Shown: one piece after another, positions 15,310-32,530 of the stretch
How the letters are laid out: each line of letters begins with the position of its first letter
How positions within the stretch are numbered: position 1 is the stretch's first letter
Assembly: GCA_903924985.1 (NCBI GenBank)
Contig: CAIYDT010000196.1
Location: 1 to 64,000, forward strand
From: an uncultured Acetobacteraceae bacterium
Lineage (GTDB): Bacteria > Pseudomonadota > Alphaproteobacteria > Acetobacterales > Acetobacteraceae
Direction of reading: 5' to 3'
DNA length: 64,000 nt
Made by a program: the position numbers and the translations under genes
The notes under the pieces: model-generated
The model's input: the letters and a program-made list of their open reading frames with translations, nothing else
What the model was told of the DNA's origin: nothing
Database searches by the model: none

Positions 15310-15845
15310 TGCGCGCGCTGTTCCTGGACCGCGACGGCGTCATCAATATCGACCACGGACACGTCGGCACCCGCGATCGTTTCGAATGGGTAGAAGGTGC
15401 TCGTGAGGCAGTCGCCCACGCCACGAAATCCGGTTGGCGCGTCTTCATCGTCACCAACCAATCCGGCGTCGCTCGGGGATATTACACCGAGGACGACGTG
15501 CGATCGTTGTTGGTCTGGATCGCGGATGAATGCCGCTTATATGGCGGAACGATCGACGATACTCGGTATTGCCCGTACCACCCGGAGGCGAAGGTCGAGG
15601 CATATCGCCGTGTCAGCGACTGGCGGAAACCCGAACCGGGGATGTTGCTGGATTTGATGCGGGTGTGGGATCTGACGCCAGATCGTTGCGTACTGGTCGG
15701 CGATCAACCGACGGATATTCAAGCCGCGGAGCGGGTCGGGATGAAGGCGCATTTATTCCCGGGTGGAAATCTCCTGGAATTCGTGCGGCCGATCCTCACC
15801 CCTCCCGTCATGGTCGAGTTTGACCCGACCGCCTCAGGCCAGTGA
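15309..15845 (+). CDS. HAD-IIIA phosphatase, GmhB-like
   Basis: A 178-residue HAD hydrolase. It opens with the nucleophile motif FLDRDGVIN (Asp6, Asp8), then TNQSGVARG, CPYHPEA, WRKPEPGM and GDQPTDIQAA. This is the heptose/histidinol-phosphate phosphatase class, typified by GmhB, which removes the C7 phosphate of heptose bisphosphate for LPS core synthesis. Only the first half of the GmhB zinc loop (CPYH) is present; the second cysteine pair is absent. The last ~15 codons coincide with a REP-like palindrome at 15805-15830, so the tail is probably acquired. It is coupled to the CNNM gene. Neighbouring genes do not confirm the heptose role. Confidence 0.75.
   Translation: MRALFLDRDGVINIDHGHVGTRDRFEWVEGAREAVAHATKSGWRVFIVTNQSGVARGYYTEDDVRSLLVWIADECRLYGGTIDDTRYCPYHPEAKVEAYRRVSDWRKPEPGMLLDLMRVWDLTPDRCVLVGDQPTDIQAAERVGMKAHLFPGGNLLEFVRPILTPPVMVEFDPTASGQ
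15805..15830. repeat. REP-like element inside the HAD gene end
   Basis: CCGTCATGGTCGAGTTTGAC followed by CCGACC closely matches the intergenic copy at 31405-31432, which reads CCGTCATGGTCGGGCTTGAC. Here the element forms the 3' end of the HAD gene. Confidence 0.65.
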
Positions 15846-15852
15846 GGCCCCT

Positions 15853-18228: not shown

Positions 18229-19031
18229 GACGCCGCCACCCCCATGAACCCGGCCAGCGACAGCAGCTGCGTCTCCGTCATCTCCAACCCGGTCTGGATC
18301 GTGCAGCCGCGCTGTTTCGCCAACGTCAGGAGCGGGGTCATGGTGGGTGCCGTCACGACCTCGGCGACGAAGCAGCGTCCCGTCAGGCCCGCCAGAACGG
18401 AGTCGGGCAGCGGCAGCCTCGGGTCGCCATTCATGCCAACAGGGGTGGCATTGACCAGGATATCGAGGTCCGCGGTGCCGGCAATTCCGGCAGTTATTTC
18501 GATGGCCGGAAACGTCCCGCGCAGCGTCGCGATCAGGGTGTTCTGCTTGGCCCGATCCAGGTCCTGGATGGATAAATGCGAGACCTCGCTCTCGCACAAG
18601 GAGTTGGCAATGGCGCAGGCCACCCCGCCGGCGCCAACCACCGCGGCCCGCTTCCTGGCGGGGTTCACACCATGGATGGCGGCTGCGGCAACGAACCCGA
18701 CCCCGTCGAACATCTCCCCTTCCAGCGTTCCGTCCGGGTCGCGGCGGAACACGTTGACGGTGGAAAACCGAGCGGCGCGCGGCGTCAACCGGTCCAGTAG
18801 CGGGGCGACGATCTGCTTGTAGGGGACGGTGACGATGATGCCTTTGCAGTTGGTCCAGCGCCGCACGGTGGCGATAAAGCCGGGAATGGCATCCGGTGCG
18901 ATCTCCATGGGTATCAGCACGGTGTTCAGCCGGTGATCGGCGAAATACCGGTTCATCACCCCGGGCGATTTCACCTGCACGATAGGGTTGCCGATGATCC
19001 CAACGATGGTCGTGGTGCCGGTAACGTGCAT
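18225..19031 (-). CDS. Shikimate dehydrogenase-family protein
   Basis: A 268-residue AroE/YdiB-family oxidoreductase. The substrate domain has IIGNPIVQVKSPGVMNRYF and IIVTVPYK (Lys of the catalytic dyad), then FDGVGF (Asp partner). The nucleotide domain has VVGAGGVACAIANSL. The usual SxS substrate-carboxylate motif (NPIxHSxSP) is altered to VQVKSP, so one substrate Ser is missing. With a catabolic-looking operon around it, I expect a quinate-, aminoshikimate- or other hydroxy-acid-specific enzyme rather than biosynthetic AroE. The stop is coupled to the MFS start. Confidence 0.8.
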   Translation of the reverse strand: MHVTGTTTIVGIIGNPIVQVKSPGVMNRYFADHRLNTVLIPMEIAPDAIPGFIATVRRWTNCKGIIVTVPYKQIVAPLLDRLTPRAARFSTVNVFRRDPDGTLEGEMFDGVGFVAAAAIHGVNPARKRAAVVGAGGVACAIANSLCESEVSHLSIQDLDRAKQNTLIATLRGTFPAIEITAGIAGTADLDILVNATPVGMNGDPRLPLPDSVLAGLTGRCFVAEVVTAPTMTPLLTLAKQRGCTIQTGLEMTETQLLSLAGFMGVAAS

Positions 19032-19036
19032 GGGGC

Positions 19037-19846
19037 CTATCCCCCGTTCTTCGCGATAAACGCCAGCACCGCGTCCGCCGCCGGCTCGGCGTGTGTCGCC
19101 GCCACGTGGTAGGAATTGCCGGGCAGGACCAAGAGCTCCGAATTCTTGATCTGCTGCTGCCAGGCGCGGGTTTCTTCGGGGGTGCCAAGGCCGCTCTTTT
19201 CCGTGGTCACCACCAGCGTCGGGCAAGCGATTTTCGGCAGATCCTCCCGAATATCGGCGCAGGCGATGGTGCCCATGAAGCCGAGCTGGGTGGACAGGGC
19301 GGTGCGGCCCATGAAATGGCCCCACCAGTCGACGCCGGCGGGTGCGAACTCCGTGCCAAGGCGGGTGCCCATGTTCTGCAGCGCCCAGGCTTCGACGCCG
19401 TGGGCCTTCAGGTCTGCGATCAGCTGTGGGACTTTCTCCTTAACCCCAACCCGCAGCGGGGCTGGGGTGCCGATCACACTCAGCGTCTTCACCCGATCCG
19501 GCCGGCGGGCGGCGAAGGCTCGGGCGATTGTCCCGCCAATCTTGGCTGCCACGACATGAAATTTGTCGATGCCGAGGTGGTCCATCAGGGCGCAGAAATC
19601 CTCGGTCAGGCTATCCATCGTCCAGGGATATTCCGCCGGCATGGGGGACGATTGGCCGAACCCGCGCATGTCCGGGCGGATGACTCGGTAATGCCGAGCG
19701 AGTTTGGGTGCCCAGGCGTACCAGGACAGGCTGCTCTCGGCGTTGCCGTGCAGCATCAGGATGGTTTCGGGCTTGGTCCACGGGTCGGTGAAATCGTCGT
19801 CCCGGTAGAACATGTCGCAATCGGGCGTGGGGCGGAAATGGGGCAT
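19037..19846 (-). CDS. Alpha/beta-hydrolase-fold protein lacking the Ser nucleophile
   Basis: A 269-residue alpha/beta-hydrolase-fold protein with ILMLHGNAESSLSW (oxyanion HG, about 29-42) and RPDMRGFGQS (about 57-66). The nucleophile elbow, normally GxSxGG, reads HVVAAKIGG: the Ser is Lys102. The region of the acid (normally GxxD) reads VVTTEKSG, without an obvious Asp. The late His is kept (NSYHVAA). It may be a non-hydrolytic enzyme or a binding protein. The start ATG has AGGAGG upstream. It is first in the operon, 5 bp before the AroE-like gene. Confidence 0.85.
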   Translation of the reverse strand: MPHFRPTPDCDMFYRDDDFTDPWTKPETILMLHGNAESSLSWYAWAPKLARHYRVIRPDMRGFGQSSPMPAEYPWTMDSLTEDFCALMDHLGIDKFHVVAAKIGGTIARAFAARRPDRVKTLSVIGTPAPLRVGVKEKVPQLIADLKAHGVEAWALQNMGTRLGTEFAPAGVDWWGHFMGRTALSTQLGFMGTIACADIREDLPKIACPTLVVTTEKSGLGTPEETRAWQQQIKNSELLVLPGNSYHVAATHAEPAADAVLAFIAKNGG

Positions 19847-20306: not shown

Positions 20307-21272
20307 CTACGTCAACCTATCCAGTACCCCGTCCTTGAACCGGCGCATATTCCCAAGGGTCTGTTCCACGACCTCATCGCGGGTGCGGCCGAACAGGCGG
20401 ACGTCGACGCAGGACACGCCGAGTGCCTCAAGCGTCTGGATATCGCCCACCCAATCGGCATCGCTGCCGGTGAACATCTCGGCCTCGCCGTCGATCGAAC
20501 CGCGCGGCCTCTGCCCCGGCGCGGCCAGCACGCGTAAAGCCAGAGTGATCTCCGACGGGTCGCGGCCGGCTTTTTCGGCGAAGCCGCGGAACCGCTCCTG
20601 GCTCTTCTTGAAGCGTCCGAGCGTGTTCATCGGAAACTGTGGATTAGTACCAACCGGATACCAACCATGCGCGTATTTCACCGTCCGCCGCAACGCCGGC
20701 CCGCTCTCACCGCCGACCCAGATGGGGATGGGCTTCTGCGCCGGTTTCGGAGTGAACTGCACGTCGTCGAACTTGACGTATTTGCCGCTGAAACGCGGTT
20801 CCTCGGCGGTCCACAGCTCCATGCACGCCGCCATCCATTCGTCAGTGACATGGCCCCGGTCGTCGAAGGGGGCGGCGCCGATGGCCTCGAACTCCTCCCG
20901 GCACCAGCCGACGCCGATGCCGCAGGTCAGGCGGCCCTTGGACAGGAAATCGATGGTGGAGAGCAGTTTCGCGGTCAGCACGGCGGGCCGGTGAGGGACC
21001 ACCATGACCGAGAGCACGAAGCGCATTTTCTTCGTCATTGCCGCGATCCAGGCGGTGGTGGCGAGCTGATCCAGCCACGCCGCCTGGGTGCCGGCCGGGA
21101 ACTCTCCTGTGTCGGTATAGGGATACTTCGAGTCCAGGTTGCGCGGCACCATGATGTGATCGCTGATGGTGACATAGTCAAAGCCGAGGTTTTCGCCCTC
21201 GACGACGATCCGAGACAGCGAATCCGGCTCGATCAGCGGACCGGAGGTGGGCGCGTTGAAACCGATCTGCAT
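20307..21272 (-). CDS. LLM-class F420-dependent oxidoreductase
   Basis: A 321-residue luciferase-like monooxygenase-fold protein of the F420-dependent type. It begins MQIGFNAPTSGPLIEPDSLS. The cofactor-pocket strand DYVTISDHIMVP (about 32-43), the central VMVVPHRPAVLTAKLLSTID and GIGVGWCREEFEAIG, and IPIWVGGESGPALRR are typical. It shares long segments with the gene at 22339-23292 and is its paralogue. Such enzymes transfer hydride between F420H2 and an unsaturated or alcohol substrate in the cytoplasm; the substrate is unknown. Its placement within 4 kb of fbiC supports F420 rather than FMN. Confidence 0.82.
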   Translation of the reverse strand: MQIGFNAPTSGPLIEPDSLSRIVVEGENLGFDYVTISDHIMVPRNLDSKYPYTDTGEFPAGTQAAWLDQLATTAWIAAMTKKMRFVLSVMVVPHRPAVLTAKLLSTIDFLSKGRLTCGIGVGWCREEFEAIGAAPFDDRGHVTDEWMAACMELWTAEEPRFSGKYVKFDDVQFTPKPAQKPIPIWVGGESGPALRRTVKYAHGWYPVGTNPQFPMNTLGRFKKSQERFRGFAEKAGRDPSEITLALRVLAAPGQRPRGSIDGEAEMFTGSDADWVGDIQTLEALGVSCVDVRLFGRTRDEVVEQTLGNMRRFKDGVLDRLT

Positions 21273-21335
21273 GGTCGATCCTCCCTAGGGTCGCCCAGGC
21301 ATAACCAATCGGGGATGGCCCGGCAAATCCACGGC

Positions 21336-21387
21336 TGTCGCTAGCAAATGAAAATGACCGGTTTAGGTAGCACATCAATTGACCGGT
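21336..21387. mobile_element. IS21-like terminal repeat remnant
   Basis: Two related units, TAGCAAATGAAAATGACCGGT (21342-21362, first 20 bases matching the plan) and TAGCACATCAATTGACCGGT (21368-21387), follow a TGTCGC at 21336. Direct repeats of about 20 bp beginning shortly inside a TG end are the plan of IS21-family termini. No transposase frame is attached, so only an end remains. This is inference from repeat form. Confidence 0.4.
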
Positions 21388-21394
21388 CTGTTCT

Positions 21395-21426
21395 GCCCAT
21401 GGGTGGGGCATGCCCCACCCATGGGC
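21395..21426. repeat. Perfect 32-bp palindrome
   Basis: GCCCATGGGTGGGGCA at 21395-21410 is followed without spacer by its exact reverse complement at 21411-21426. The centre is GCATGC. It lies in the 215-bp gap between two minus-strand genes, 8 bp after the IS21-like repeats. It could be an operator, an IS target or end, or a cruciform/terminator; no T-tract is adjacent. Confidence 0.85.
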
Positions 21427-21487
21427 GGCGCGCGTGACGAGGCCAAGGGATTGAGCCAACGATCATGCGGTTGACGGGGATTGGATA

Positions 21488-21697
21488 TCAATCACCCGGC
21501 GGACCTGCGAGCATACGCAGTTGCGCCGTCCGCGCCAATTCGATGCCAACGTAAGCGGCAGCAATCCCAATGCCAATTACAATCCACTGGCCGAGGAGCG
21601 CTAGCCAAGCGTCGCTCACGAACCAGCCGACAAAGTTGATAAACATCCCAAGAGTTGACACTAGTACTAGCATTGGCCCCTCTGATTGTGACGCCAC
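21488..21697 (-). CDS. Small membrane protein, unknown
   Basis: A frame of up to 69 residues (GTG at 21697, or 61 residues from ATG 21673) with two hydrophobic segments, MLVLVSTLGMFINFVGWFV and LLGQWIVIGIGIAAAYVGI, and a basic/polar tail. I do not recognise a family. It begins at the stop of hicB and could be its operon partner. Function unknown; it could also be a chance frame. Confidence 0.4.
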   Translation of the reverse strand: MASQSEGPMLVLVSTLGMFINFVGWFVSDAWLALLGQWIVIGIGIAAAYVGIELARTAQLRMLAGPPGD

Positions 21698-22101
21698 TAC
21701 GCTGCCTCGCGATCTCGCCGCATCCGCTCCCGCACCGCCTGAGCGAGCAACCCCGATCGGGAATATCCGGTGCGCGTGGCATACCGGTCCACCGCGGCCA
21801 GCAAATCCTCGGGTAGCGTGATGTTCACACGAACGGCCTTTCCCGGCAGTTCGGCACGAATAAGCACGCGGGCGGCCTCGTTCACAGCCGGATCATGTGG
21901 GATCGCATCCAAGGCTGATGGGTCGGGCAGCACATCTCCATGCTCGATCGACAGGTCGATGTGCGCCTGCAACGCCTCTTCGGCATTCAACGCGGCTTCC
22001 TGAATCGTCGCTCCCGCGCTGGTACAGCCGGGCAGGTCCGGGAAAAAGACCCCGTACCCGTCGGCGGCATGCTCGATAATGGCGGGGTAGTAGCGTGCCA
22101 T
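21697..22101 (-). CDS. hicB: HicB-family antitoxin
   Basis: A 134-residue antitoxin. The N-terminal partial RNase-H-like HicB domain reads ARYYPAIIEHAADGYGVFFP, then DLPGCTSAGATIQEAALNAE (about 1-45). The C-terminal ribbon-helix-helix DNA-binding domain reads VNITLPEDLLAAVDRYATRT and SRSGLLAQAVRERM (about 92-128). It would bind HicA and autoregulate the pair. The ATG is 2 bp after the end of hicA. The antitoxin frame is intact although the toxin is not. Confidence 0.88.
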   Translation of the reverse strand: MARYYPAIIEHAADGYGVFFPDLPGCTSAGATIQEAALNAEEALQAHIDLSIEHGDVLPDPSALDAIPHDPAVNEAARVLIRAELPGKAVRVNITLPEDLLAAVDRYATRTGYSRSGLLAQAVRERMRRDREAA

Positions 22102-22103
22102 TC

Positions 22104-22297
22104 TCAATCCTTGCGCAATACGACACCCGACTGCCGCTCGATGCTCCGCAGGGTGCCCGGAGGAATATCCTTGACGGGATGGGAAACCGTGGTGGTGCCG
22201 GGACGATCCGAGTGGCGGAAATGGTGTGGCTGCCGGTGATCCGCACCTGCCGCCACCCAGCCGCTTCCAACGCTCGGATGACCGTTCGGCTATCCAT
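22104..22297 (-). pseudogene. hicA: HicA toxin, frameshifted
   Basis: From ATG 22297 the frame gives MDSRTVIRALEAAGWRQVRI then TGSH, the normal HicA start with the catalytic-His region. The remainder, HFRHSDRPGTTTVSHPVKDI then PPGTLRSIERQSGVVLRKD, is in another frame and ends at 22104. Loss of one C in the CACCAC repeat near 22225 (encoding the His run) explains it. Repaired, the protein would have 64 residues, the family norm for this dsRBD-fold mRNA interferase. As written it is inactive; an assembly error must be excluded. Confidence 0.8.
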
Positions 22298-22302
22298 GTG
22301 TA

Positions 22303-22332
22303 GTTATACTCACCGCTAGCCGAGGGAGGCAA
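22303..22332 (-). promoter_or_regulatory. hicAB promoter, probably leaderless
   Basis: On the minus strand TTGCCT (22332-22327) and TATAAC (22308-22303) are separated by 18 bp, a good sigma-70 match. The predicted transcription start, 6-7 bases past the -10, coincides with the hicA ATG at 22297. No Shine-Dalgarno lies before that ATG. The mRNA would therefore be leaderless or nearly so. Confidence 0.5.
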
Positions 22333-22338
22333 CAGCGG

Positions 22339-23292
22339 TTAACGCACCTTCGCGATAACCTCATCCCGGAATCTCCGCATATTGTCCACGGTCGCATCCA
22401 GGCTGGGGCCGAACAGGCCGAAGTCGAACGCGGTCACGCCCACGTCCCGCAGTGCCTTGATATCACCGACAAAATCCGCAGCGCTTCCGGTAAACAGCTT
22501 GCGTTCGCCATCGACGGTGCCCTTCGGCTGTGCTTCGGGGTTGGATGACACGCGATAGGCCAACCCAACCGCTTTGGGGTCGCGGCCGGCTTTTTCCGTC
22601 ATGGCCGCCAACTTCGCCGCGCCGACCTTGAAGCGGTTCAGCGTGTCCATCGGGAATTGCGGGTTGGTGCCGATGGGATACCAGGCGTCCCCATACCTGG
22701 CGGTGCGGCGCATGGCCGGGCCGCTCTCGCCGCCGACCCAGATGGGGATCGGCTGCTGCACCGGCTTGGGCGGGAACAGCACGTCCTTGAACTGGACGTA
22801 TTTGCCGTCGAATTTGGGCTCGTCGGCGGTCCATAACTCCTTGCAGACCATCATCCACTCGTCCGTCACCACGCCGCGTTCGGCGAAGGGGGGCGCGCCG
22901 ATGGCGATGAACTCCTCCTCGCACCAGCCGGCCCCGATGCCCAGGGTGATGCGTCCCTTCGATAGAAAGTCGAGCGTCGCCAGGATTTTCGCGGTCAGCA
23001 CGGCCGGACGGTGCGGCACGACCATAACGGAGGTCACGATCCGCAGTTTCGATGTGACGGCGGCGATGAAGGTGGCTGCGGTCAGTTGCTCCAGCCGGGC
23101 GGCGGCGGCGCCGGAGGGGAACTCGCCCGAATCGGAATAGGGATATCTGGAGGCTATCGAGGTCGGGATCATGACGTGATCGCTGACCGTGACATAGTCG
23201 AAGCCCAGCATCTCCGCTTCCGTGGCGATGCGGACGAGGCTGTCGGGCCCGATCAAGGGGCCGCTGCTGGGTGCGCTGCAACCGATCTGCAT
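22339..23292 (-). CDS. LLM-class F420-dependent oxidoreductase
   Basis: A 317-residue paralogue of the 20307-21272 gene, opening MQIGCSAPSSGPLIGPDSLV. It has FDYVTVSDHVMIP (about 30-42), VMVVPHRPAVLTAKIL, GIGAGWCEEEF and IPIWVGGESGPAMRRTARYG. The C-terminal part ends VTAFDFGLFGPSLDATVDNM. The start is an ATG behind GGGAGGAA (on + strand 23300-23307). It is transcribed divergently from the next LLM/fbiC pair, 85 bp away, so a shared control region is possible. It is a likely consumer of F420H2; substrate unknown. Confidence 0.83.
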   Translation of the reverse strand: MQIGCSAPSSGPLIGPDSLVRIATEAEMLGFDYVTVSDHVMIPTSIASRYPYSDSGEFPSGAAAARLEQLTAATFIAAVTSKLRIVTSVMVVPHRPAVLTAKILATLDFLSKGRITLGIGAGWCEEEFIAIGAPPFAERGVVTDEWMMVCKELWTADEPKFDGKYVQFKDVLFPPKPVQQPIPIWVGGESGPAMRRTARYGDAWYPIGTNPQFPMDTLNRFKVGAAKLAAMTEKAGRDPKAVGLAYRVSSNPEAQPKGTVDGERKLFTGSAADFVGDIKALRDVGVTAFDFGLFGPSLDATVDNMRRFRDEVIAKVR

Positions 23293-23377
23293 GATAAATT
23301 CCTCCCGCGTGTGTTTGCGCTGTCGGCCTCGATAGCACACGATGCGACCGCCAATGGCAACATGGAGGAAAAAGCGG

Positions 23378-24334
23378 GTGGAGTTCGGCATCCATATTGG
23401 GCCACGCGGCTGCATGACGACGCGCGCCAACATCATGACGCTGGGCACGCGCGCCGAGGCCCTGGGCTACGACATTCTGGGCGTGGCCGATCACGTGATC
23501 GCGCCGGTGACCACGGGCGTGCGGTATCCCTACACCGCCGACGGGGTGTGGCCGGGTGCTCCAACCGGCGAATGCATGGACACGCTCGCGGTGCTGGCGT
23601 TCCTGGCCGGTTGCACGCAGCGGATCAAGTTGCTGACCTCGGTCATCGTGGTGCCGCACCGCCAACCGGTGCTGACCGCCAAACTGTTTTCCACCGCCGA
23701 CGTACTGTCCGATGGCCGGGTCATCGCGGGCGTCGGCGCCGGCTGGATGCCCGAGGAATTCGCGGCCCTCGGAACGCCGCCCTTCGAGGAACGCGGCGCG
23801 GTCACGGACGAATATATCCGCGCCTGGAAAACGCTGTGGACGCAGGATCGGCCGGAGATGGCCGGCAAATACGCGTCATTCACCAATGTGGTGTTCGAGC
23901 CCAAGCCCGTCTCCAAGCCGCATCCGCCCATCTGGGTTGGCGGCGAAAGCCCACGTTCCCTGCGCCGGGTGGCCGAGTTGGGCGACGGCTGGTACCCGGT
24001 GTCGAACAACCACCAGGTGCTGTTGAACACCCCGGCGCTGTTGCAGGCCGGGATCGGCCGCATGCATCGCGCGGTCGAAAAAGCGGGGCGCGACCCCAGC
24101 ACCATCGACATCGCCTATGTCTGGTTCATGCCACCAAGCTGGAAGGCCCGTACCGGTCCTGACGGTAAGCGGCAGATGTTCAGCGGCAGCGGGGACGATA
24201 TGCTGGAGGACGTCGCGGCCTTACAGGCGATCGGCGTCCGGAACCTCATTTTCTACCTACAGCGCCCGACGATCGAGCAAACGATGGAACTGACCGAGCG
24301 GTTCGCCGAAGACGTGATACGGAAGGCACCATGA
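23378..24334 (+). CDS. LLM-class F420-dependent oxidoreductase
   Basis: A 318-residue LLM-fold oxidoreductase. I chose GTG 23378 (VEFGIHIGPRGCMTTRANIM) because GGAGG at 23364-23368 precedes it by nine bases; an ATG at 23342 in the same frame adds 12 unconvincing residues. Motifs are YDILGVADHVIAP (about 33-45), VIVVPHRQPVLTAKLFSTAD, GVGAGWMPEEF and PPIWVGGESPRSLRR. Its stop overlaps the fbiC start by four bases (ATGA), so it is cotranslated with F420 chromophore synthesis. That makes F420 its most likely cofactor. Confidence 0.85.
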   Translation: MEFGIHIGPRGCMTTRANIMTLGTRAEALGYDILGVADHVIAPVTTGVRYPYTADGVWPGAPTGECMDTLAVLAFLAGCTQRIKLLTSVIVVPHRQPVLTAKLFSTADVLSDGRVIAGVGAGWMPEEFAALGTPPFEERGAVTDEYIRAWKTLWTQDRPEMAGKYASFTNVVFEPKPVSKPHPPIWVGGESPRSLRRVAELGDGWYPVSNNHQVLLNTPALLQAGIGRMHRAVEKAGRDPSTIDIAYVWFMPPSWKARTGPDGKRQMFSGSGDDMLEDVAALQAIGVRNLIFYLQRPTIEQTMELTERFAEDVIRKAP

Positions 24335-26691
24335 CAGACACTGACCTGCGGACCTGGCTCCACGCCACCCCTCTGCCCGAGCTGATGGCGGCGGCGGCGG
24401 CCAGGCGCGACGAGACTTATGGGCGGTTAATTTCTTATTCCCGCAAGGTTTTCATTCCGCTGACGAAGCTGTGCCGCGACGTGTGCCACTATTGCACCTT
24501 CGCCGAACACCCGCGCGACGGCCACGCCGCGTACCTCACGGGCGGCGAGGTGCTGGCGATCGCCCGCGCCGGCCAGGCCGCCGGCTGCACCGAGGCGTTG
24601 TTCACACTGGGCGACAAACCCGAACTGCGGCACCGCGCGGCGCGCGAGGCTTTGGCCGCATTGGGGCATGAAACGACCATTTCGTACCTGCGCGAAATGT
24701 GCGCGCTGGTGCTGAAGGAAACGACTCTGCTGCCGCACGTGAACCCCGGTGTGATGACGCGGGAGGAAATCGCGTCGTTACGGGAGGTGTCTGCCAGCCA
24801 GGGCGTGATGCTGGAATCCACCTCAGAGCGGCTGTGCGAACCCGGCGGTGTGCATTTCGGCTCCCCCGACAAGAAGCCGGCTGTGCGGCTGGAAACCCTG
24901 CGGCTGGCGGGCGAACTGGCGGTGCCCTTCACCACCGGCATCCTGATCGGCATCGGCGAAACGGTCGACGAGCGCCTGGACGCCCTGTTCGCCATCCGCG
25001 ACCTGCACACGGCGCACGAGCATATCCAGGAAGTCATTGTCCAGAATTTCCGGGCGAAGGAAGACACCAAACTGGCGGGCGCGGATGAGCCCGGGCTGGA
25101 CGACCTGCTGTGGACCATCGCCGCCGCGCGCCTGATCCTGCCGACGGATGTGCATGTGCAGGCGCCACCCAACCTGTCTCCGGGTGTTTACCAAAAGTTG
25201 ATCGGCGCCGGCATCGACGATTGGGGCGGCGTATCGCCCGTCACCCCGGATCATGTGAACCCTGAAGCCCCTTGGCCGGAGTTAGAGGCTTTGGCCGACC
25301 GTACCGCCGAGATGGACAAAATCCTGGTCGCTCGGTTGCCGGTTTATCCTTCCTACGCTTTCGATGTGGCCCGCTGGGCGCATCCCAAGATCGCAACGCG
25401 GATCCTGCAACACGCGGATTCCGAGGGCTGGGCGCGCGACGACGACTGGGCACCAGGTTTGACGTTTGCCCCGAAACCCCGGACGGTGCGACTCGACAGC
25501 GTCGACCCGGCGGTCGAAGGCGCCATCGCCAAGGCCATGCAAGGCAAGCGGCTGAACGAAGCCGAAATTGTGCGCCTGTTCGCCGCCCGCGACGCCGATT
25601 ACGAGCGGGTGATCACGGCGGCCGATGAGTTGCGACAGGCTGTCAGCGGCGACGTGGTGCGCTACGTCGTGAACCGCAATATCAACTACACCAACATCTG
25701 CTACTACAAATGCAAGTTCTGCGCGTTCTCCAAGGGCAAAACCCACGAGGCCCTGCGCGGCACGCCCTACGATCTGGAATGGAGCGAGATCGTTCGCCGT
25801 TCCGAAGAAGCCTGGGACCGCGGCGCCACCGAGGTCTGCCTGCAAGGCGGCATCCACCCCGATTACACCGGCGAGACCTACATCGGCATCTGCAAGGCGA
25901 TTAAAGCCGCCGTGCCGGATATGCACATTCACGCTTTCTCCCCGCTGGAAGTGACGCAGGGCGCAGCGACGCTGGGCCTCTCGCTTGTGGAATTTCTGTC
26001 GCGGCTGAAGGATGCGGGGCTCGGAACGTTGCCGGGCACCGCGGCGGAAATTCTGGACGACGAAATCCGCGCCATCATTTGCCCGGATAAAATCAACGCG
26101 CAACAATGGGTAGACGTGGCGCGCGCGGCGCACTCATTGGGTCTGCGCACCACATCCACCATCATGTATGGCCATGTCGAAGGTCCGCTCAATTGGGCCC
26201 GCCATCTCCTGGTGCTGCGCGACCTGCAAGCCGAGACCGGCGGCTTCACCGAATTCGTGCCACTGCCCTTCGTGCACATGGAAGCGCCGATGTACTTGCG
26301 TGGCATGGCCCGCAAAGGCCCGACCACGCGGGAGGCGGTTCTGATGCACGCCATCGCACGCCTGACGCTACATCCGCTGATCACCAATATCCAGACGTCC
26401 TGGGTGAAAATGGGACCGGAGGGCGCGGCGTTGTGCCTGAACGCCGGCGCCAACGACATGGGCGGCACGCTGATGAATGAGAGCATCAGCCGCGCCGCCG
26501 GGACTCAACACGGGCAGGAATTCCCGCCCGAGGCGATGGAAGGCCTCATCCACGGCATCGGACGGCAGCCGCTGCAGCGCTCGACCGCTTACGGTGGCGT
26601 GTCGAATGAGCGGCAAGTTGTATCGTTCAACGCGCCGGAGTTAACGCCGGTGGTGCAGACGCCGCCCCGGAAGGTGTTGGTGGGGGAGTAG
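24331..26691 (+). CDS. fbiC: FbiC: fused CofG-CofH, Fo synthase
   Basis: A 786-residue two-domain radical SAM enzyme making 7,8-didemethyl-8-hydroxy-5-deazariboflavin (Fo), the chromophore of coenzyme F420, from tyrosine and the riboflavin precursor. The CofG half (about 1-370) has its cluster cysteines at 48, 52 and 55 (KLCRDVCHYCTF). The CofH half (about 410-770) has Cys457, 461 and 464 (NICYYKCKFCAFSKGK). Fused FbiC is the actinobacterial arrangement, whereas archaea have two proteins. It is four-base coupled to an LLM oxidoreductase. A decayed copy of its 3' end lies at 27985-28102. Confidence 0.95.
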   Translation: MTDTDLRTWLHATPLPELMAAAAARRDETYGRLISYSRKVFIPLTKLCRDVCHYCTFAEHPRDGHAAYLTGGEVLAIARAGQAAGCTEALFTLGDKPELRHRAAREALAALGHETTISYLREMCALVLKETTLLPHVNPGVMTREEIASLREVSASQGVMLESTSERLCEPGGVHFGSPDKKPAVRLETLRLAGELAVPFTTGILIGIGETVDERLDALFAIRDLHTAHEHIQEVIVQNFRAKEDTKLAGADEPGLDDLLWTIAAARLILPTDVHVQAPPNLSPGVYQKLIGAGIDDWGGVSPVTPDHVNPEAPWPELEALADRTAEMDKILVARLPVYPSYAFDVARWAHPKIATRILQHADSEGWARDDDWAPGLTFAPKPRTVRLDSVDPAVEGAIAKAMQGKRLNEAEIVRLFAARDADYERVITAADELRQAVSGDVVRYVVNRNINYTNICYYKCKFCAFSKGKTHEALRGTPYDLEWSEIVRRSEEAWDRGATEVCLQGGIHPDYTGETYIGICKAIKAAVPDMHIHAFSPLEVTQGAATLGLSLVEFLSRLKDAGLGTLPGTAAEILDDEIRAIICPDKINAQQWVDVARAAHSLGLRTTSTIMYGHVEGPLNWARHLLVLRDLQAETGGFTEFVPLPFVHMEAPMYLRGMARKGPTTREAVLMHAIARLTLHPLITNIQTSWVKMGPEGAALCLNAGANDMGGTLMNESISRAAGTQHGQEFPPEAMEGLIHGIGRQPLQRSTAYGGVSNERQVVSFNAPELTPVVQTPPRKVLVGE

Positions 26692-26747
26692 CGAATTTTA
26701 TACGCGGTTGAGCCGCAACCTGTCGTTATCCGGCGCCAGCAGCCGAT

Positions 26748-26790
26748 CTGACCCGCACACCGGATGGCCTGCACCCGGTGTGCGGGTCAG
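26748..26790 (+). terminator. Strong stem-loop after fbiC
   Basis: A perfect 16-bp stem (CTGACCCGCACACCGG at 26748-26763 with its complement at 26775-26790) has an 11-nt loop, 57 bp past the fbiC stop. No T-tract follows, so it may be a Rho-type terminator, an mRNA stabiliser, or the end of an inserted segment, since the DNA from here to about 27985 interrupts a duplicated fbiC end. Confidence 0.55.
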
Positions 26791-26888
26791 TGCAGAATGC
26801 GATCTACGAACCGTAGCCGCGGTTGACGCAAACCGCTGCGACGTCCAGCATGCCGCACAACGATTTTTAAAAAGGATGAAAAATCACG

Positions 26889-27887
26889 ATGTTAGAACGC
26901 ATCGGAAATCGGAATCAGATCTCTCGTCGAACGATGTTGGGCGCCGCGGCCGCGACCGTCGCGACGCCAGCACTGGGTGCCGGATGTACTGTTGGTCCGG
27001 TGGCACACGAAAAGGGACCGAAAGTCTGGCTGGATTTGGATCAGGTCGAGCTCGATGCTTCTTACGACCAATCCGCTTATGCGCCGATGATCAATCAAAT
27101 TCAGAAGCGCTTCACCACGAGCAGCAACACCACGCGGGACCGTCTTGGTGCACCGAAACGCATGGCCTATGGGCCTACGACGGTCGAGCAGCTCGATCTC
27201 TACCCTGCCAAAACGCCGAACGCACCGATTTTCGTGTTCATTCATGGCGGCCGCTGGCTTCTCACAGCCGCCAAGGATTACGGCTTCCCGGCGGACCTCT
27301 TCGTCAACGCGGGCGTCAACTACATCGTGCCCGATTTTATTCAGGCCGATGCCGCGAACGGCGACCTCCGGCCGATGGCGGATCAGGTACGACGCGCGAT
27401 TGCATGGGTCTACAAGAACGCAGATAGTTTCGGGGGAAACAACAAACGCTTCTATGTCGGCGGACATTCGTCGGGCGGTCACCTGTGCGGCGTCGCACTC
27501 GTCACCGACTGGGAAAAGGATTTCGGTCTGCCGGCGGATATGGTCACCGGTGGACTTTTGATGAGCGGGATTTATGACCTGAAGCCGGCTCGGCTGTCCA
27601 GCAGCCGCAGCGCCTACATTAAGTTCGATGATGATATGGAACAGTCTCTGAGTTCGATCCGGCATCTCGACAAGCTGCGCGCACCGATTACCGTCGTCTA
27701 CGGAACATTTGAAACGCCCGAATTCCAGCGGCAAAGCCGCGATTTCGCCGCCGCGGTCAGGGCCGTCGGCAAGCCGGTCGAACTCATCGAAGCGCCGAGT
27801 TATAACCATTTCGAAATGTGCGAAAGTCTTGGGAATCCGTACGGGCCGAATGGCTTGGCGGCAATGAAGCTGATGAAGCTGGTCTAG
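26889..27887 (+). CDS. Tat-exported alpha/beta hydrolase (BD-FAE/arylformamidase-like)
   Basis: A 332-residue hydrolase with a twin-arginine signal: SRRTMLGAAAATVATPALGA (about 12-31) ends at a Cys, so it may also be lipidated. The mature part has the oxyanion HGGRW (about 119-123), the nucleophile elbow GGHSSGGHLCG (about 195-205) and a late SYNHFEM carrying the His. This is the BD-FAE/kynurenine-formamidase-like esterase class, acting in the periplasm. Codon use looks less GC-rich than its neighbours. It sits between fbiC and a decayed duplicate of the fbiC end, suggesting it came in with that rearrangement. Confidence 0.82.
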   Translation: MLERIGNRNQISRRTMLGAAAATVATPALGAGCTVGPVAHEKGPKVWLDLDQVELDASYDQSAYAPMINQIQKRFTTSSNTTRDRLGAPKRMAYGPTTVEQLDLYPAKTPNAPIFVFIHGGRWLLTAAKDYGFPADLFVNAGVNYIVPDFIQADAANGDLRPMADQVRRAIAWVYKNADSFGGNNKRFYVGGHSSGGHLCGVALVTDWEKDFGLPADMVTGGLLMSGIYDLKPARLSSSRSAYIKFDDDMEQSLSSIRHLDKLRAPITVVYGTFETPEFQRQSRDFAAAVRAVGKPVELIEAPSYNHFEMCESLGNPYGPNGLAAMKLMKLV

Positions 27888-27984
27888 CGCGTCGTATTCG
27901 TCAGGATCGCTCTCATCGGCTTGAGGGCGTCGCATACACATTGATCATGAGGCACTACCCCGCGGCGCCTGACCGATCTGCCAG

Positions 27985-28102
27985 GCGGGGGCTCAGCATT
28001 GCCCGGAATTCCCGCCCGAGGCGACGGAGGGCCTGATCCGCGTCAGCGGCCGCTCATCAGTCCAGCGCTCGACGGCCTACGGTGGTGTGTCAAATGAGCG
28101 GT
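27985..28102 (+). pseudogene. Decayed duplicate of the fbiC 3' end
   Basis: This DNA aligns with fbiC 26507-26622. It encodes EFPPEATEGLIRVSGRSSVQ then RSTAYGGVSNER and a TAG, against EFPPEAMEGLIHGIGRQPLQ then RSTAYGGVSNERQ in fbiC. It carries many substitutions and no upstream coding sequence, so it is an old partial copy of about 115 bp rather than a functional gene. It marks the right flank of the segment holding the Tat-exported hydrolase. Confidence 0.75.
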
Positions 28103-28340
28103 AGATCATCTTGCGCAGTGCTTGGCGCCCTTCGCGAGGAACCTTTCTTGCCCGCCTACCAACCGCGCGGTCACCGATAAGCAGCGTCCACCATCTCCGT
28201 TGGACATACCGGGGTGTGAGTTCGCCCGTTGCCGCCTGTCCCCGCAGAAAATCGTCCCCGAGTTTACGGTCCGTTAACCTTTTTGGGTTCACAGTCGCAT
28301 TTCCCGCTTGCATCACCGAACCTAAAATGGTACACAAATC
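28103..28340. other. Gap before the toxin gene
   Basis: No convincing gene is seen in this stretch. The last 20 bases hold TAAAAT at 28323-28328, a good -10 element 13 bp before the toxin ATG, with only a poor -35 (TTTCCC at 28300). Together with the fbiC duplicate, the whole interval 27888-28340 is decayed intergenic DNA. Confidence 0.4.
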
Positions 28341-28733
28341 ATGCTTCACCTGCTCACCCGCCCCCAGCGACTGGTTATCGCCGATTTCTATCAGACCGAA
28401 CTGGGCCGGGAGCCGGTGCGGGAGTGGCTGAAGACACTGACACCTGCGGAACGGCAGGTGATCGGCAAGGATGTGCGGAAGGTCGAATACGGATGGCCGT
28501 TGGGAATGCCGACATGTGCGCCAATCGGGGACGGGTTGTGGGAAATTCGTACCCACCTGGAAAACCGTATCGCCCGGATTTTCTTCTGCTTCGTGCGGGA
28601 GAAGATGATTCTGCTGCACGGGTTCATCAAAAAATCCCGCGTGGCGCCAACCACCGATCTCACCCTCGCTCGGGATCGCAAAGCCGACCTGGAACGCCGG
28701 TTAAGCACCACTCTATTAAGGCAACGGACATGA
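28341..28733 (+). CDS. Gp49/HigB-like (RelE superfamily) toxin
   Basis: A 130-residue protein of the phage Gp49-like/HigB family. Features are FYQTELGREPVREWLKTL (about 17-34), GWPLGMP, GDGLWEIRTHLENRIARIFF (about 66-85) and LLHGFIKKSRVAPTTDLTLA (about 92-111). These toxins have the RelE fold and cleave mRNA at the ribosome. The ATG 28341 gives the normal start. The stop overlaps the antitoxin ATG by four bases, and toxin-first order is typical of HigBA-type modules. Confidence 0.85.
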   Translation: MLHLLTRPQRLVIADFYQTELGREPVREWLKTLTPAERQVIGKDVRKVEYGWPLGMPTCAPIGDGLWEIRTHLENRIARIFFCFVREKMILLHGFIKKSRVAPTTDLTLARDRKADLERRLSTTLLRQRT

Positions 28734-29032
28734 ACGACCCCGACGACATCTCCCCCATCGGCTCCAGCTTCGAAAGCTTCCTCGAAGACGAAGGTATTCT
28801 TGCCAGCGTCGACGAGGCCGCGGTCAAGGAAGTGATCGCCTGGCAGGTGGCCGAGGCGATGAAGACCCTCGGCCTGACCAAATCGGCGATGGCGGCGGCG
28901 ATGCAAACCAGCCGGACGCAGGTGAACCGGCTGCTCGACCCCACCAATACCAGCGTGGCGCTGCACACGCTCTATCGTGCCGCCGAGGTGCTGGGGAAAC
29001 GGCTGCGGATTGAGTTGGTGGACGTGAAATAA
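28730..29032 (+). CDS. XRE-type HTH antitoxin
   Basis: A 100-residue partner of the upstream toxin. The C-terminal two thirds is a helix-turn-helix: VAEAMKTLGLTKSAMAAAMQ then TSRTQVNRLLDPTNTSVALH (about 44-83), followed by AAEVLGKRLRIELVD. It should neutralise the toxin and repress the module. It is translationally coupled to the toxin, and its stop lies 3 bp from the convergent cofC stop. Confidence 0.85.
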   Translation: MNDPDDISPIGSSFESFLEDEGILASVDEAAVKEVIAWQVAEAMKTLGLTKSAMAAAMQTSRTQVNRLLDPTNTSVALHTLYRAAEVLGKRLRIELVDVK

Positions 29033-29035
29033 AGC

Positions 29036-29680
29036 CTACAGCCCAAACGCGTCCAGCAGCGCCAAGGTCCGCGTCGGCTTACGCGGCGCCCGCAGGAACG
29101 CGCGCAGATCGACGGGATGGTCGATGTCCAGCCCAATCCCCGGCAGCCGCACGACGGTCGGTTCGATCCCCGACCGCCGCGCCGCCGCCAGATGCGGGAA
29201 GTAGCTGTCGTCTCCGAAGCGCAACGGGACCGCGAACGCCGGGTTGCATAGCACGGCATTCGAACCGAGCTCGTCGTGCGCCGGCACGATGGTGAACGAC
29301 GGGGCGTCCAGGCAGGATGACACCACCGCATCGACCTCGGCCGAGGTCACGCGCGGGATATCGCCAGGCATGGTCAGCAGCGCACCGGCACCCTCGGCTG
29401 CCAACACGCGAGCCATGCCCATGACCGCACCGGTGTGGCCATCCAATGCACCCTCGGTCACCACGCGAGCGCCATACCGTACAGCCAAAGCCGCAGCCCG
29501 CGAGTCCACGGTGTTCACCAAGATCCCCGCCAAGCGCGTGGCGCCGGCCAAGGCCGCCAGCACGTCCTCCAGCATGGTCGCGGCCAGGACTTCCCGTTGC
29601 GCGGGCGTGAGAAAAACCGACAGGCGCTGCTTCGCCCCGGTGAACGCCTTCACCGGCACGCAGGCGTAAACCTGAGTCAC
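29036..29680 (-). CDS. cofC: CofC/FbiD guanylyltransferase of F420 synthesis
   Basis: A 214-residue nucleotidyltransferase with the MobA-like fold. It activates 2-phospho-L-lactate, phosphoenolpyruvate or 3-phosphoglycerate with GTP, depending on lineage. Visible are VYACVPVKAFTGAKQRL (about 3-19; Lys and Arg contact GTP), MPGDIPRVTSAEV (metal-binding Asp), NAVLCNPAFAVPLRFGDDS and LDIDHPVDL. The GTG start at 29680 overlaps the cofD stop by four bases. Which phospho-acid is used cannot be told from the sequence alone. Confidence 0.9.
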   Translation of the reverse strand: MTQVYACVPVKAFTGAKQRLSVFLTPAQREVLAATMLEDVLAALAGATRLAGILVNTVDSRAAALAVRYGARVVTEGALDGHTGAVMGMARVLAAEGAGALLTMPGDIPRVTSAEVDAVVSSCLDAPSFTIVPAHDELGSNAVLCNPAFAVPLRFGDDSYFPHLAAARRSGIEPTVVRLPGIGLDIDHPVDLRAFLRAPRKPTRTLALLDAFGL

Positions 29681-30615
29681 TTGCGGCGCCGCAGCACGGC
29701 GGCGGCATCCAGCACGGTGCGGGCCAGCGCCTCCCGGTCCTCGATGGTCGTCATCATGGTTTGCGCCAGGGTGACGCGGGCGTCGATCGACACGACCTCC
29801 GCCATGTCGGCGTGATCGATCACGTAGCCGTCCAGCAGGTCGGCATAACGGTGCGCCACCGAACCGGCCGACGGATCCAACCCTAGCTCGGTCATCATCT
29901 TGGCCGTCGGTCCTTTCACGGCCCGTCCAGCGATAATGGGAGACACGGCGATCACCGGTGCTTTGCAGGCAACCAGTGCCTCCCGCACGCCCGGGATGGC
30001 CAGGATCGGTTCGACGCTGATGAAGGGGTTGGACGGGCAGATCACCACCGCCTGCAACGCCGGGTCGGCCAAAGCCGCCATGAACGCCGGGTGCGGCGTC
30101 GCTTCCGCCGCGCCCTCGAAAGCCAACGCGCGAACCACCGGCTCGCAGCGGCGATGGACAAAATAATCCTGGAAATCCAGCCAGCCATGCTCGGTCAGCA
30201 GCCGGGTCCGCACGCGGTCGTCGGTCATGGGGACGACCCGAGGCCCGATGCCTAGGCGTCGGCACAGATCGGCGGTGACTTCCGACAAACTCTCCCCAGC
30301 CCGCAGCCGCCGCGTCCGCACCACATGCAGCGCCACGTCGCGGTCGCCGAGGCGGAACCAGGTTTCGCCGCCCAGGCTCTCCATGGTTTCCATGAACGAC
30401 CAGGTCTCGTCGTGCCGGCCCCAGCCGACCTCCCGATTGGCCAACCCGGATAGCGTATAGGTCACGGTGTCGATATCGGGGGAGATCGACAGGCCCAGAT
30501 GCTCGAAATCGTCGCCGGTGTTGACGACGACCATCAACTCCTCAGGCGGCAGGATCCGGGACAGGCCGAGGGCCAGCTTGGCGCCGCCGACCCCGCCGGA
30601 TAGCGCGATGATCAC
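29677..30615 (-). CDS. cofD: CofD/FbiA 2-phospho-lactate transferase
   Basis: A 312-residue enzyme that transfers the phospho-acid from its GDP-activated form to Fo, giving F420-0 (or dehydro-F420-0 in the PEP route). The N-terminus IIALSGGVGGAKLALGLSRI, NTGDDFEHLGLSISPDIDTV (about 32-51) and CPSNPFISVEPIL (about 193-205) are the family's nucleotide- and Fo-binding segments. Length is normal. It is four-base coupled to cofE upstream and cofC downstream, forming a cofE-cofD-cofC operon. Confidence 0.95.
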   Translation of the reverse strand: MIIALSGGVGGAKLALGLSRILPPEELMVVVNTGDDFEHLGLSISPDIDTVTYTLSGLANREVGWGRHDETWSFMETMESLGGETWFRLGDRDVALHVVRTRRLRAGESLSEVTADLCRRLGIGPRVVPMTDDRVRTRLLTEHGWLDFQDYFVHRRCEPVVRALAFEGAAEATPHPAFMAALADPALQAVVICPSNPFISVEPILAIPGVREALVACKAPVIAVSPIIAGRAVKGPTAKMMTELGLDPSAGSVAHRYADLLDGYVIDHADMAEVVSIDARVTLAQTMMTTIEDREALARTVLDAAAVLRRRK

Positions 30616-31379
30616 TGGAACAGATCCTCCTCGGGCGGGCGTACCAGGTCCGACACCGGCGCCTCGGGCGCGGTCCAGGTCAGGCCGCGGATGACGACGA
30701 CCGGCTGCCCCTCGGCTGCCTGGCCTTGCAGCAGGGAGGCCGCGGCGGCGATCTCGTCCGCGAAGCCGATGATGCTGACTTCCAGGATGCGGCCGAACAA
30801 ATCGGGCTGGCCGCGGAGATCGATGAAGGACGGCAACCCAGCGCAGCCAATGGCGACCCCCGCTGTGCCACGGCGCCAGGGACGGCCGAAACTATCGCTG
30901 ATCACGACGCCAAGCTTAACGCCGAACCGATCGGCCAAAGATGCCCGGATCGCCTCCGCCGACCCGTCCGGGTCCAGCGGCAGCAGCAGCGCGCGGTGCA
31001 CCCCGTCGGCCGGCGCGACATTGGACTGATCCACACCGGCATTGGCCATCACGAAACCCAGCCGGTGCTGCATGATCATCAGATTGGGTCGGCTCCGCAC
31101 CACCTTCACGGAATCCGACAGCACCACCTGCACGATGCGCGGGTCCTTGCCGACCTCGGCGGCCAGCTTTTCCGCATCCGCCGAAGGCACGACGGACGCG
31201 AGATCGACGCCACGCCCCTCGGCCTTCGACACGATCTTCTGCGCCAGCACGACCACATCGCGGTCGTGCAGCGTCAGACCGGCGCGGCCCAGGCCGTCGG
31301 CGATCAACGCCGGCAGGTCGTCCCCCTCCCGAACCATGGGGAAGCTCGGGATGGCGAAGAGTTCGAGGCGGGAGGTCAT
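30612..31379 (-). CDS. cofE: CofE F420-0:gamma-glutamyl ligase
   Basis: A 255-residue ligase that adds the gamma-glutamate tail to F420-0 using GTP. Segments include LELFAIPSFPMVREGDDLPA, VVLAQKIVSKAEGRGVDL (about 43-60), RPNLMIMQHRLGFVMANAGV with DQSN, and VISDSFGRPWRRGTAGVAIG (about 159-178). It consists of the ligase domain alone: the C-terminal nitroreductase-like domain of mycobacterial FbiB, which reduces dehydro-F420-0, is absent. It is first in the operon and coupled to cofD. Confidence 0.93.
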   Translation of the reverse strand: MTSRLELFAIPSFPMVREGDDLPALIADGLGRAGLTLHDRDVVVLAQKIVSKAEGRGVDLASVVPSADAEKLAAEVGKDPRIVQVVLSDSVKVVRSRPNLMIMQHRLGFVMANAGVDQSNVAPADGVHRALLLPLDPDGSAEAIRASLADRFGVKLGVVISDSFGRPWRRGTAGVAIGCAGLPSFIDLRGQPDLFGRILEVSIIGFADEIAAAASLLQGQAAEGQPVVVIRGLTWTAPEAPVSDLVRPPEEDLFQ

Positions 31380-31404
31380 CCGGCTACACGCCGGCTACCC
31401 CATA

Positions 31405-31519
31405 CCGTCATGGTCGGGCTTGACCCGACCACCTCCCGCGGTACGTGGCGTTGAAATCGCACGGTGTTCACTGGTGCCTCATTGGCCTGAGATGGCCGGG
31501 TCAGGCCCGGCCATGACGG
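31405..31519. repeat. Inverted pair of REP-like palindromes
   Basis: CCGTCATGGTCGGGCTTGAC-CCGACCACC (31405-31432) and GATGGCCGGGTCAGGCCCGG-CCATGACGG (31491-31519) are two versions of the same palindrome in opposite orientation, about 60 bp apart. They fill the gap between fgd and cofE, like a BIME-type intergenic mosaic. Related units lie at 11910 and 15805. Confidence 0.65.
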
Positions 31520-31525
31520 TTGTAC

Positions 31526-32530
31526 TCAATCGAACCGAGCGCGCAGCTTGGGCAGCACTTGCTCCCCGTACAGCTTCAGGAAGCGGGCCTGATCCGGGCC
31601 GGGGGCATGGAAGACCAAGTGGCGGAAGCCCATCTCGATGTAGGGTTTGATCTTCTCGATATGCTCGTCGGGGTCATTGGACACGATCCAGCGGCTGGCG
31701 GCCCGTTCCACCGGCAGGGCATCCGCCAGGCGCTCCATCTCGACCGGGTCCTCCACCGACATTTTTTCTTCCGGGGTCAGGGCCAGCGCCGCCCAGTGGC
31801 GGGTGTCATGCAAGGCGCGGTCCTTGTCGGCGTCGAACGAGACCTTCATCTCGATCATCCGGTCGTAGTTGGGCTTCGGCTTGCTCGCGAGCTTCATGCC
31901 TTCTTCGACGTTCGGCAGCAGGGTCTCGGTGTAGAGCTTCCATGCCTTCCCGGACGTGCAGATAAAGCCTTCGCACATGCGCCCCGCGTATTTCGCGACC
32001 TGCGGGCCGGCGCCGGCGACGTAGATGGGAACGGGGTTCGCGGGCTTGTCGTAGATGGTGGCGCTTTCGGTGCGGTAGAACTCGCCCTCGAAGCTCACGC
32101 GATCCTCGGTCCAGAGCTTGCGGATCAGAGTCAGCGCCTCGCGCAACCGAGCGAAGCGTTCCTTCGTTTCCGGCCATTTGATGCCCATGGCGGGGACTTC
32201 ATTCAGGCCTTCCCCGGTGCCGACGCCCAGCACCACGCGGCCGGGGAACATTGAGCCCAGTGTCCCGAACACCTGCGCCACGATCGAGGGATGATAGCGG
32301 AAGGTCGGGGTTAGGACGCTGGTGCCCATCACGATCTTCGACGTGCTGGCGCCCAGCGCGCCCATCCACGCAAGCGCCGAGGGTGCGTGCCCATCCGTAT
32401 GCTTCCATGGCTGGAAATGGTCGCTAATAAACACCGAATCGAACCCGCACTGCTCGGCCAGGACGGAGAAGTCCAACAGCGGTTTCGGCGCGAACTGTTC
32501 GGCGGACGCCTTGTATCCAAGCTTGAGCAT
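31526..32530 (-). CDS. fgd: Fgd-like F420-dependent sugar-phosphate dehydrogenase
   Basis: A 334-residue LLM-fold enzyme strikingly like mycobacterial Fgd1, which oxidises glucose-6-phosphate and reduces F420. It opens LKLGYKASAEQFAPKPLLDF, then ISDHFQPWKHTDGHAP (Asp37, His38, Trp42 correspond to the Fgd catalytic/F420 residues), LGVGTGEGLNE (Glu equivalent to Fgd Glu109), KYAGRMCEGFICTSGKAWKL and RHLVFHAPGPDQARFL near the end. The ATG has AGGAGGGAG upstream. It would generate F420H2 for the LLM enzymes. The sugar phosphate is inferred from the family, and other sugar phosphates are possible. Confidence 0.85.
   Translation of the reverse strand: MLKLGYKASAEQFAPKPLLDFSVLAEQCGFDSVFISDHFQPWKHTDGHAPSALAWMGALGASTSKIVMGTSVLTPTFRYHPSIVAQVFGTLGSMFPGRVVLGVGTGEGLNEVPAMGIKWPETKERFARLREALTLIRKLWTEDRVSFEGEFYRTESATIYDKPANPVPIYVAGAGPQVAKYAGRMCEGFICTSGKAWKLYTETLLPNVEEGMKLASKPKPNYDRMIEMKVSFDADKDRALHDTRHWAALALTPEEKMSVEDPVEMERLADALPVERAASRWIVSNDPDEHIEKIKPYIEMGFRHLVFHAPGPDQARFLKLYGEQVLPKLRARFD

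Follow-up and report, generated by a model that had tools for sequence, protein, structure and literature searches.

A coenzyme F420 locus in an uncultured Acetobacteraceae bacterium: gene content, descent and predicted electron supply

How does an alphaproteobacterium come by the genes for making and using coenzyme F420, and which enzyme would keep the cofactor reduced? The question is raised by a group of genes on contig CAIYDT010000196.1 (64,001 bp) from a Rhodopila-like Acetobacteraceae genome bin (5.59 Mb, 285 contigs, completeness 98.7%). We analyzed positions 1 to 64,000 of this contig, hereafter called the window. We consider it highly probable that the locus makes F420 and also supplies it with electrons, that it descends within an old lineage of alphaproteobacterial F420 loci, and that the glucose-6-phosphate-linked dehydrogenase Fgd stands in it in place of Fno, the NADPH:F420 reductase. 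F420 synthesis together with Fgd in the Alphaproteobacteria has already been predicted in print, and the locus is in this sense one of a known kind.

Gene content and predicted pathway

Gene identities were judged by the NCBIfam curated cut-offs (in bits), and all the F420 genes named here score above them (Table 1). The fused cofG-cofH gene (fbiC) described in the original prediction is a single open reading frame (ORF), and both CX3CX2C radical SAM motifs are visible in its product. The coupled cofE-cofD-cofC run is borne out by two four-base GTGA overlaps, cofE/cofD at 30615-30612 and cofD/cofC at 29680-29677. CofE is a protein of 255 amino acids in which Pfam recognizes F420_ligase only, without the C-terminal reductase (nitroreductase) domain of FbiB. 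The three oxidoreductases of the LLM (bacterial luciferase-like) class and the Fgd-like dehydrogenase are also found as proposed, and Fgd is identical to the FGD1 of M. tuberculosis at all six residues checked (H40, W44, E109, K198, K259, and R283), which we take to be the active-site residues of FGD1.

One LLM gene, LLM3, is indeed coupled to fbiC, its stop overlapping the fbiC start in the four bases ATGA (24331-24334). The start of LLM2 lies most likely at 23292 (MQIGCS...), as set by alignment with LLM1, and therefore LLM2 and LLM3 are divergent without overlap. LLM1 and LLM2 are paralogues with 62% identity, and LLM3 is 41% identical to LLM2. Scans for promoters and terminators gave matches no commoner than in shuffled sequences.

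The pathway that we infer from these genes, including the enzyme activities, the substrates in vivo, and the use of F420 rather than flavin mononucleotide (FMN) by the LLM enzymes, would run as follows. FbiC would make FO from tyrosine and a riboflavin precursor; CofC would activate a three-carbon phospho-acid, either 2-phospholactate or phosphoenolpyruvate (PEP); CofD would link the activated phospho-acid to FO; and CofE would attach the glutamate tail. Fgd probably recharges the finished F420 with glucose-6-phosphate, and LLM1-3, together with the numerous LLM paralogues encoded at other sites of the genome, would spend the resulting F420H2 on their substrates. The locus had been called a complete F420 island. 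It is a biosynthesis-plus-use locus with its core genes above their cut-offs, but the word complete goes too far, because no dehydro-F420 reductase is recognizable in the genome.

Fgd or Fno as the supplier of electrons

Of 387 alphaproteobacterial genomes surveyed, our own included, 53 have a CofGH score above the cut-off (a few further genomes with strong split or partial CofG/CofH matches below the cut-off are left out of this number). Fgd scores above its cut-off in nine, all of them within the 53. The Fno model (TIGR01915, cut-off 149.8 bits) was then scored in 47 genomes. None of the 21 Fgd-bearing alphaproteobacteria (nine from this survey, five from a further scan, and seven members of the genus recovered by tblastn) has Fno above the cut-off. 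Conversely, Fno is above the cut-off in all 23 of the scored CofGH genomes that have no Fgd above its cut-off; these 23 were chosen, by highest CofGH rank, from 44 genomes of that kind. It is also above the cut-off in G058, a genome counted in neither group, and below it (best 78 bits) in two Ktedonobacteria that carry Fgd.

The same division is seen locus by locus. Among the 63 named alphaproteobacterial FbiC loci, 26 have Fgd only, 12 have Fno only, none has both, and 25 have neither within the flank. When the two states are placed on a 42-row FbiC tree that includes the two Ktedonobacteria, the state changes six times, and at least two of these changes are forced by starred branches. Independent pairs number two on starred branches, both concordant, and six on all branches, which is too few for significance. 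It should be mentioned that F420 loci with an Fno match also occur on plasmids of Agrobacterium, Leisingera, Paracoccus, Sinorhizobium, and Novosphingobium (L122-L126), some of them predicted to be conjugative.

In this sample, Fgd and Fno are alternatives, as in the actinobacterial precedent: according to PMC8498797, Mycobacterium has Fgd, not Fno, as its dedicated F420 reducer, and so does the window. In other words, Fgd occupies in this lineage the place that Fno holds in other alphaproteobacterial loci. The same source describes loci of Paracoccus and Oligotropha with the same CofG/H, CofC, CofD, and free-standing CofE. The plasmid loci of Paracoccus alcaliphilus and Leisingera have split cofG/cofH genes and npdG (Fno) beside cofE, whereas in the window cofGH is fused, Fgd is present instead of Fno, and the locus is partly divergent. 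The two Ktedonobacteria resemble the window in having a one-piece FbiC and an Fgd above the cut-off with Fno below it; they differ in an FbiE-like nitroreductase of about 144 bits (below the cut-off), which is not seen in the window genome, and no cof genes were found within their FbiC flanks. A literature search found no paper whose title or abstract deals with these loci or with the exclusivity of Fgd and Fno; subscription papers were mostly outside its coverage.

Descent of the locus and its host

The block has a wide distribution among relatives. Of the 47 best kindred loci (L031-L077), 27 show the order LLM2 (-), FbiC (+), and CofC-CofD-CofE-Fgd (-), or 26 if a stricter Fgd score is applied. 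In the other 20, contig ends intervene or the cof set is incomplete within the flank; in Rhodopila globiformis, Fgd-CofE-CofD-CofC lies on a separate contig (L253). An LLM2 homologue on the opposite strand adjoins FbiC, or is separated from it by LLM3 alone, in 45 of the 47. The arrangement with LLM3 in between is seen in four of them (L031, L033, L036, and L037, of which L033 and L036 are among the 27) and in the genus members G274 and G250; thus, the coupling of LLM3 to fbiC is a local addition and not a general feature. Both LLM1 and LLM3 are absent from most kindred loci. The LLM2/FbiC/CofC-D-E/Fgd block is common to Acetobacteraceae, Reyranella, and Bradyrhizobium.

The original prediction saw in the fused FbiC and the Fgd-like enzyme pointers to an actinobacterium-like source, and a recent acquisition from an actinobacterium has points in its favor. 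PMC8498797 has fbiC arising in the Actinobacteria and then being passed on, and according to PMC8764529 the Gram-negative producers, too, probably obtained their genes from that phylum. Mycobacteria are the hosts in which Fgd is most familiar, and the window Fgd is 56-60% identical to plasmid copies from Rhodococcus and Nocardia. However, the best 80 FbiC loci in the species-genome collection comprise 63 that are alphaproteobacterial by title (one of them titled only Proteobacteria), 14 from Chloroflexota, two betaproteobacterial, and one unplaced, and no record among these 80 is titled as an actinobacterium. Actinobacterial plasmid copies of FbiC are 44-54% identical to that of the window.

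The trees point in the same direction. An FbiC tree of 65 rows places the window inside a 19-row clade that is entirely alphaproteobacterial (SH-aLRT 99); three actinobacterial rows fall on a distant long branch, and one Rhodococcus plasmid copy, itself a long branch, is of unsure placement. Miltoncostaea, the actinobacterial copy closest by identity (54%), fell to the coverage filter in that tree and was included in a 45-row tree, which agrees with the first: the window lies inside an 11-row alphaproteobacterial clade (100/98), and all five actinobacterial rows lie outside a 36-row proteobacterial/Chloroflexota group (99/98). A clade of the window, four close kin, and the five actinobacterial rows was rejected (p-AU 3e-5), in a test for which the group was named after inspection of the tree and in which long branches are present. 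In a 37-row Fgd tree with a weakly placed root, 28 alphaproteobacterial rows, the window among them, form one group (93/93, not starred), with two Ktedonobacteria and four Rhodococcus rows outside it. The actinobacterial sampling behind these trees is thin (four or five FbiC rows and four Fgd rows, all from plasmid records).

Other features agree with this placement. A one-piece CofG-CofH is also found in the Chloroflexota loci of the best 80 and in many proteobacterial copies, although it is split in T. roseum; the fusion is therefore no actinobacterial mark. The actinobacterial system (FbiA-D, Fgd) likewise has a fused FbiC, but the window differs from it in the unfused CofE, in the clustering of the genes, and in the separate positions of FbiC and Fgd in the trees. 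The G+C content of the island falls inside the range of the window. With the block common to several alphaproteobacterial families, a recent actinobacterial transfer is very improbable; the trees, the clade test, and the list of the best 80 loci all argue against it within the actinobacterial sampling just described. The block is best read as an old alphaproteobacterial gene set and not as a recent actinobacterial gift. At a deeper level, an ancient actinobacterial origin of the whole 36-row group is possible, since two actinobacterial rows, Miltoncostaea and Rhodococcus DK176, are its nearest neighbors in the tree. The placement of Bradyrhizobium, nested among the Reyranella sequences for FbiC and adjacent to them for Fgd, suggests that transfer has occurred within the class.

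Does the contig itself belong to the host named for it? The original prediction regarded the host genes as alphaproteobacterial, and this is upheld by comparison with related genomes. Among the matches listed, the closest FbiC proteins are those of an Acetobacteraceae metagenome-assembled genome (95% identity) and of Rhodopila globiformis (84%). The contig of the former (L031) also has the CNNM/CaiB side of the window. Beyond fgd, the window continues with gpmI, a murein hydrolase activator gene, a CtpA-like protease gene, a polysaccharide deacetylase gene, and a NUDIX gene, a run that is presumably typical of alphaproteobacteria. In the same-genus genome G234 (1% contamination), Fgd-CofE-CofD-CofC adjoins gpmI-envC-ctpA as it does here, at 72-95% identity. 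The gene cofD is present in all seven other genomes of the genus among those listed (194 unmatched genomes lie outside this listing), in 18 of 60 genomes representing 60 genera of the family, and in 36 of 250 genomes of the order (35 above the cut-off), our own being counted in both of the latter numbers.

That the contig is contamination from a different organism in the bin might be argued from the contamination estimate of the bin and from the finding that gpmI-envC-ctpA stands beside Fgd in only one of seven same-genus regions. The other six have different neighbors, and the block thus has no constant place in the genus. Set against the arrangement in G234, the related contig in another Acetobacteraceae bin, and the presence of cofD throughout the listed genus, contamination is hardly credible, and these comparisons support an alphaproteobacterial origin of the contig.

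The remaining genes of the region are included in Table 1. The esterase gene between fbiC and cofC probably lies outside the F420 pathway. In the same interval, a Gp49-like (DUF891) gene precedes a weak helix-turn-helix match, and the two resemble a toxin-antitoxin pair. A HicB-like antitoxin gene with a HicA remnant lies between LLM1 and LLM2; only residues 4-26 of the HicA ORF match HicA (26.1 bits, slightly below the cut-off), and the probable remainder is in a different frame, so the toxin gene is seemingly broken or misread. Finally, a Shikimate dehydrogenase-like N-terminal domain is encoded in an ORF that shares sequence with a longer one encoding an MFS transporter domain, so that the limits of the genes are blurred.

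Table 1. Features of the F420 locus and its surroundings (positions in the window; scores in bits against the model cut-off)
Feature	Positions	Strand	Score and remarks
Shikimate dehydrogenase-like N-terminal domain	18225-19325	-	
LLM1, TIGR03619-family LLM oxidoreductase	20307-21272	-	207.8 vs 166.9
HicB-like antitoxin gene and HicA remnant	21697-22332, 21893-22297	-	
LLM2, TIGR03619-family LLM oxidoreductase	22339-23292	-	231.2 vs 166.9; ORF extends to 23448
LLM3, TIGR03619-family LLM oxidoreductase	23342-24334	+	243.6 vs 166.9
fbiC, fused CofG-CofH, FO synthase	24331-26691	+	NF006687, 1136.1 vs 1018
Alpha/beta hydrolase (hormone-sensitive-lipase-like esterase)	26889-27887	+	
Gp49-like (DUF891) gene	28341-28733	+	
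Weak helix-turn-helix match	~28711-29032	+	below cut-off
cofC, phospho-carboxylate guanylyltransferase	29036-29680	-	113.5 vs 105; scored within over-long ORF 29036-30265
cofD, phospho-carboxylate transferase to FO	29677-30615	-	311.8 vs 257.45
cofE, F420-0 gamma-glutamyl ligase, free-standing	30612-31379	-	272.6 vs 180.65
Fgd	31526-32530	-	TIGR03554, 479 vs 420

Side chain, LLM enzymes and wider meaning

Which side chain the cofactor would carry depends on CofC. PMC8764529 reports that serine S162 of the Mycetohabitans CofC governs the use of 3-phosphoglycerate (3-PG) and that 2-phospholactate is the best substrate of the Paracoccus and Oligotropha CofC enzymes. In a pairwise alignment, the window CofC has glycine at the position of this serine, and the same is true of all 84 aligned CofC rows, a set with no 3-PG enzyme as positive control and with the window copy present more than once. 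The glycine suggests that the product should be F420 formed by the 2-phospholactate or PEP route, the latter of which depends on a dehydro-F420 reductase.

With the C-terminal FbiB model (cut-off 249.55 bits), none of 34 genomes scores above the cut-off. The highest values are about 144 bits in two of the eight Chloroflexota (52 or less in the other six) and 136 bits in one of the 26 alphaproteobacteria, Xanthobacteraceae G678 (66 or less in the other 25); the model may therefore miss a true FbiE. Our own genome has 11 nitroreductase matches, in which FbiE-like queries, with the FbiE of T. roseum absent as a yardstick, reach at most 64.3 bits; the same queries reach the actinobacterial loci L114 and L116 at 89-125 bits. 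The exception, G678, has a copy in its F420 locus (L105), where an FbiE-like nitroreductase is encoded at 15381-15983, roughly 3 kb away from FbiC; this locus also carries Fno.

The final product might instead be 3PG-F420, made from 3-PG without the need for a reductase. The reduction-free route of Mycetohabitans, as given in PMC8764529, would fit the lack of a recognizable FbiE; among known structures, CofC is matched best by the 3-PG enzyme 7P97 (1.6e-25), and a gpmI-type phosphoglycerate mutase gene adjoins fgd. The position equivalent to 162 holds glycine, however, where serine or threonine was expected of such an enzyme, and the preference of the Paracoccus and Oligotropha enzymes also speaks for classical F420. 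We therefore regard 3PG-F420 as improbable. For classical F420, either 2-phospholactate is used or the side chain is saturated by an enzyme outside the reach of these models. LLM2 as a general dehydro-F420 reductase is weakened as a candidate, because loci L244-L250, which bear Fgd and lie outside the Acetobacteraceae/Reyranella/Bradyrhizobium group, have no LLM2 match beside FbiC.

As for the LLM enzymes, they could be FMN-dependent monooxygenases that merely neighbor the F420 genes. TIGR03619 is a subfamily-domain model, many FMN-type LLM models match these proteins too, though more weakly, and LLM1 and LLM3 are not retained in most kindred loci. On the other side, all three proteins score above the threshold set for a subfamily that is called F420-dependent, LLM2 keeps its place beside FbiC, and LLM candidates are commoner in genomes with an F420 locus. 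Our own genome (G000) has 122 loose LLM candidates; 42 of these were scored, the maximum allowed for any one genome, and all 42 are matches. In 40 genomes hand-picked from the order and family surveys of cofD, the median number of candidates is 106 in eight genomes of the genus; it falls to 41.5 in 12 cofD-bearing genomes from the rest of the family and to 16.5 in 20 that lack cofD. Outside the genus, the excess is modest after adjustment for genome size (t ~2.2). On balance, FMN dependence of LLM1-3 is unlikely, and these LLM enzymes would be users of F420.

Several points weigh against the overall reading of the locus as a functional F420 system fed by Fgd. The bin has an estimated contamination of 7.51%; Fno was scored in 23 of the 44 Fgd-lacking CofGH genomes, and many of the scored genomes are close kin; the LLM family includes FMN-dependent enzymes; no FbiE is recognizable in our own genome (C-terminal FbiB model, best 24.6 bits); and PMC8498797 reports no more than traces of F420 in two other alphaproteobacteria. 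A wider generalization can be offered tentatively: in alphaproteobacterial loci, Fgd and Fno would be interchangeable but never found together, with several swaps, usually inside the cof locus or next to it; one lineage would be fed by sugar phosphate alone; and the Fgd lineage, without the usual dehydro-F420 reductase, would use 2-phospholactate or another saturating enzyme, for which LLM2 beside FbiC may be a candidate in the Acetobacteraceae/Reyranella/Bradyrhizobium group.

These observations lead to a sharper question, namely how the side chain is saturated where no FbiE is recognizable. Within this sample, Fgd and Fno divide without overlap; this runs counter to a published statement that alphaproteobacterial producers have both, and it provides a testable rule for how aerobic bacteria feed F420. 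The Acetobacteraceae, Reyranella, and Bradyrhizobium with a linked Fgd, including the cultured Rhodopila globiformis, join the likely users of F420.

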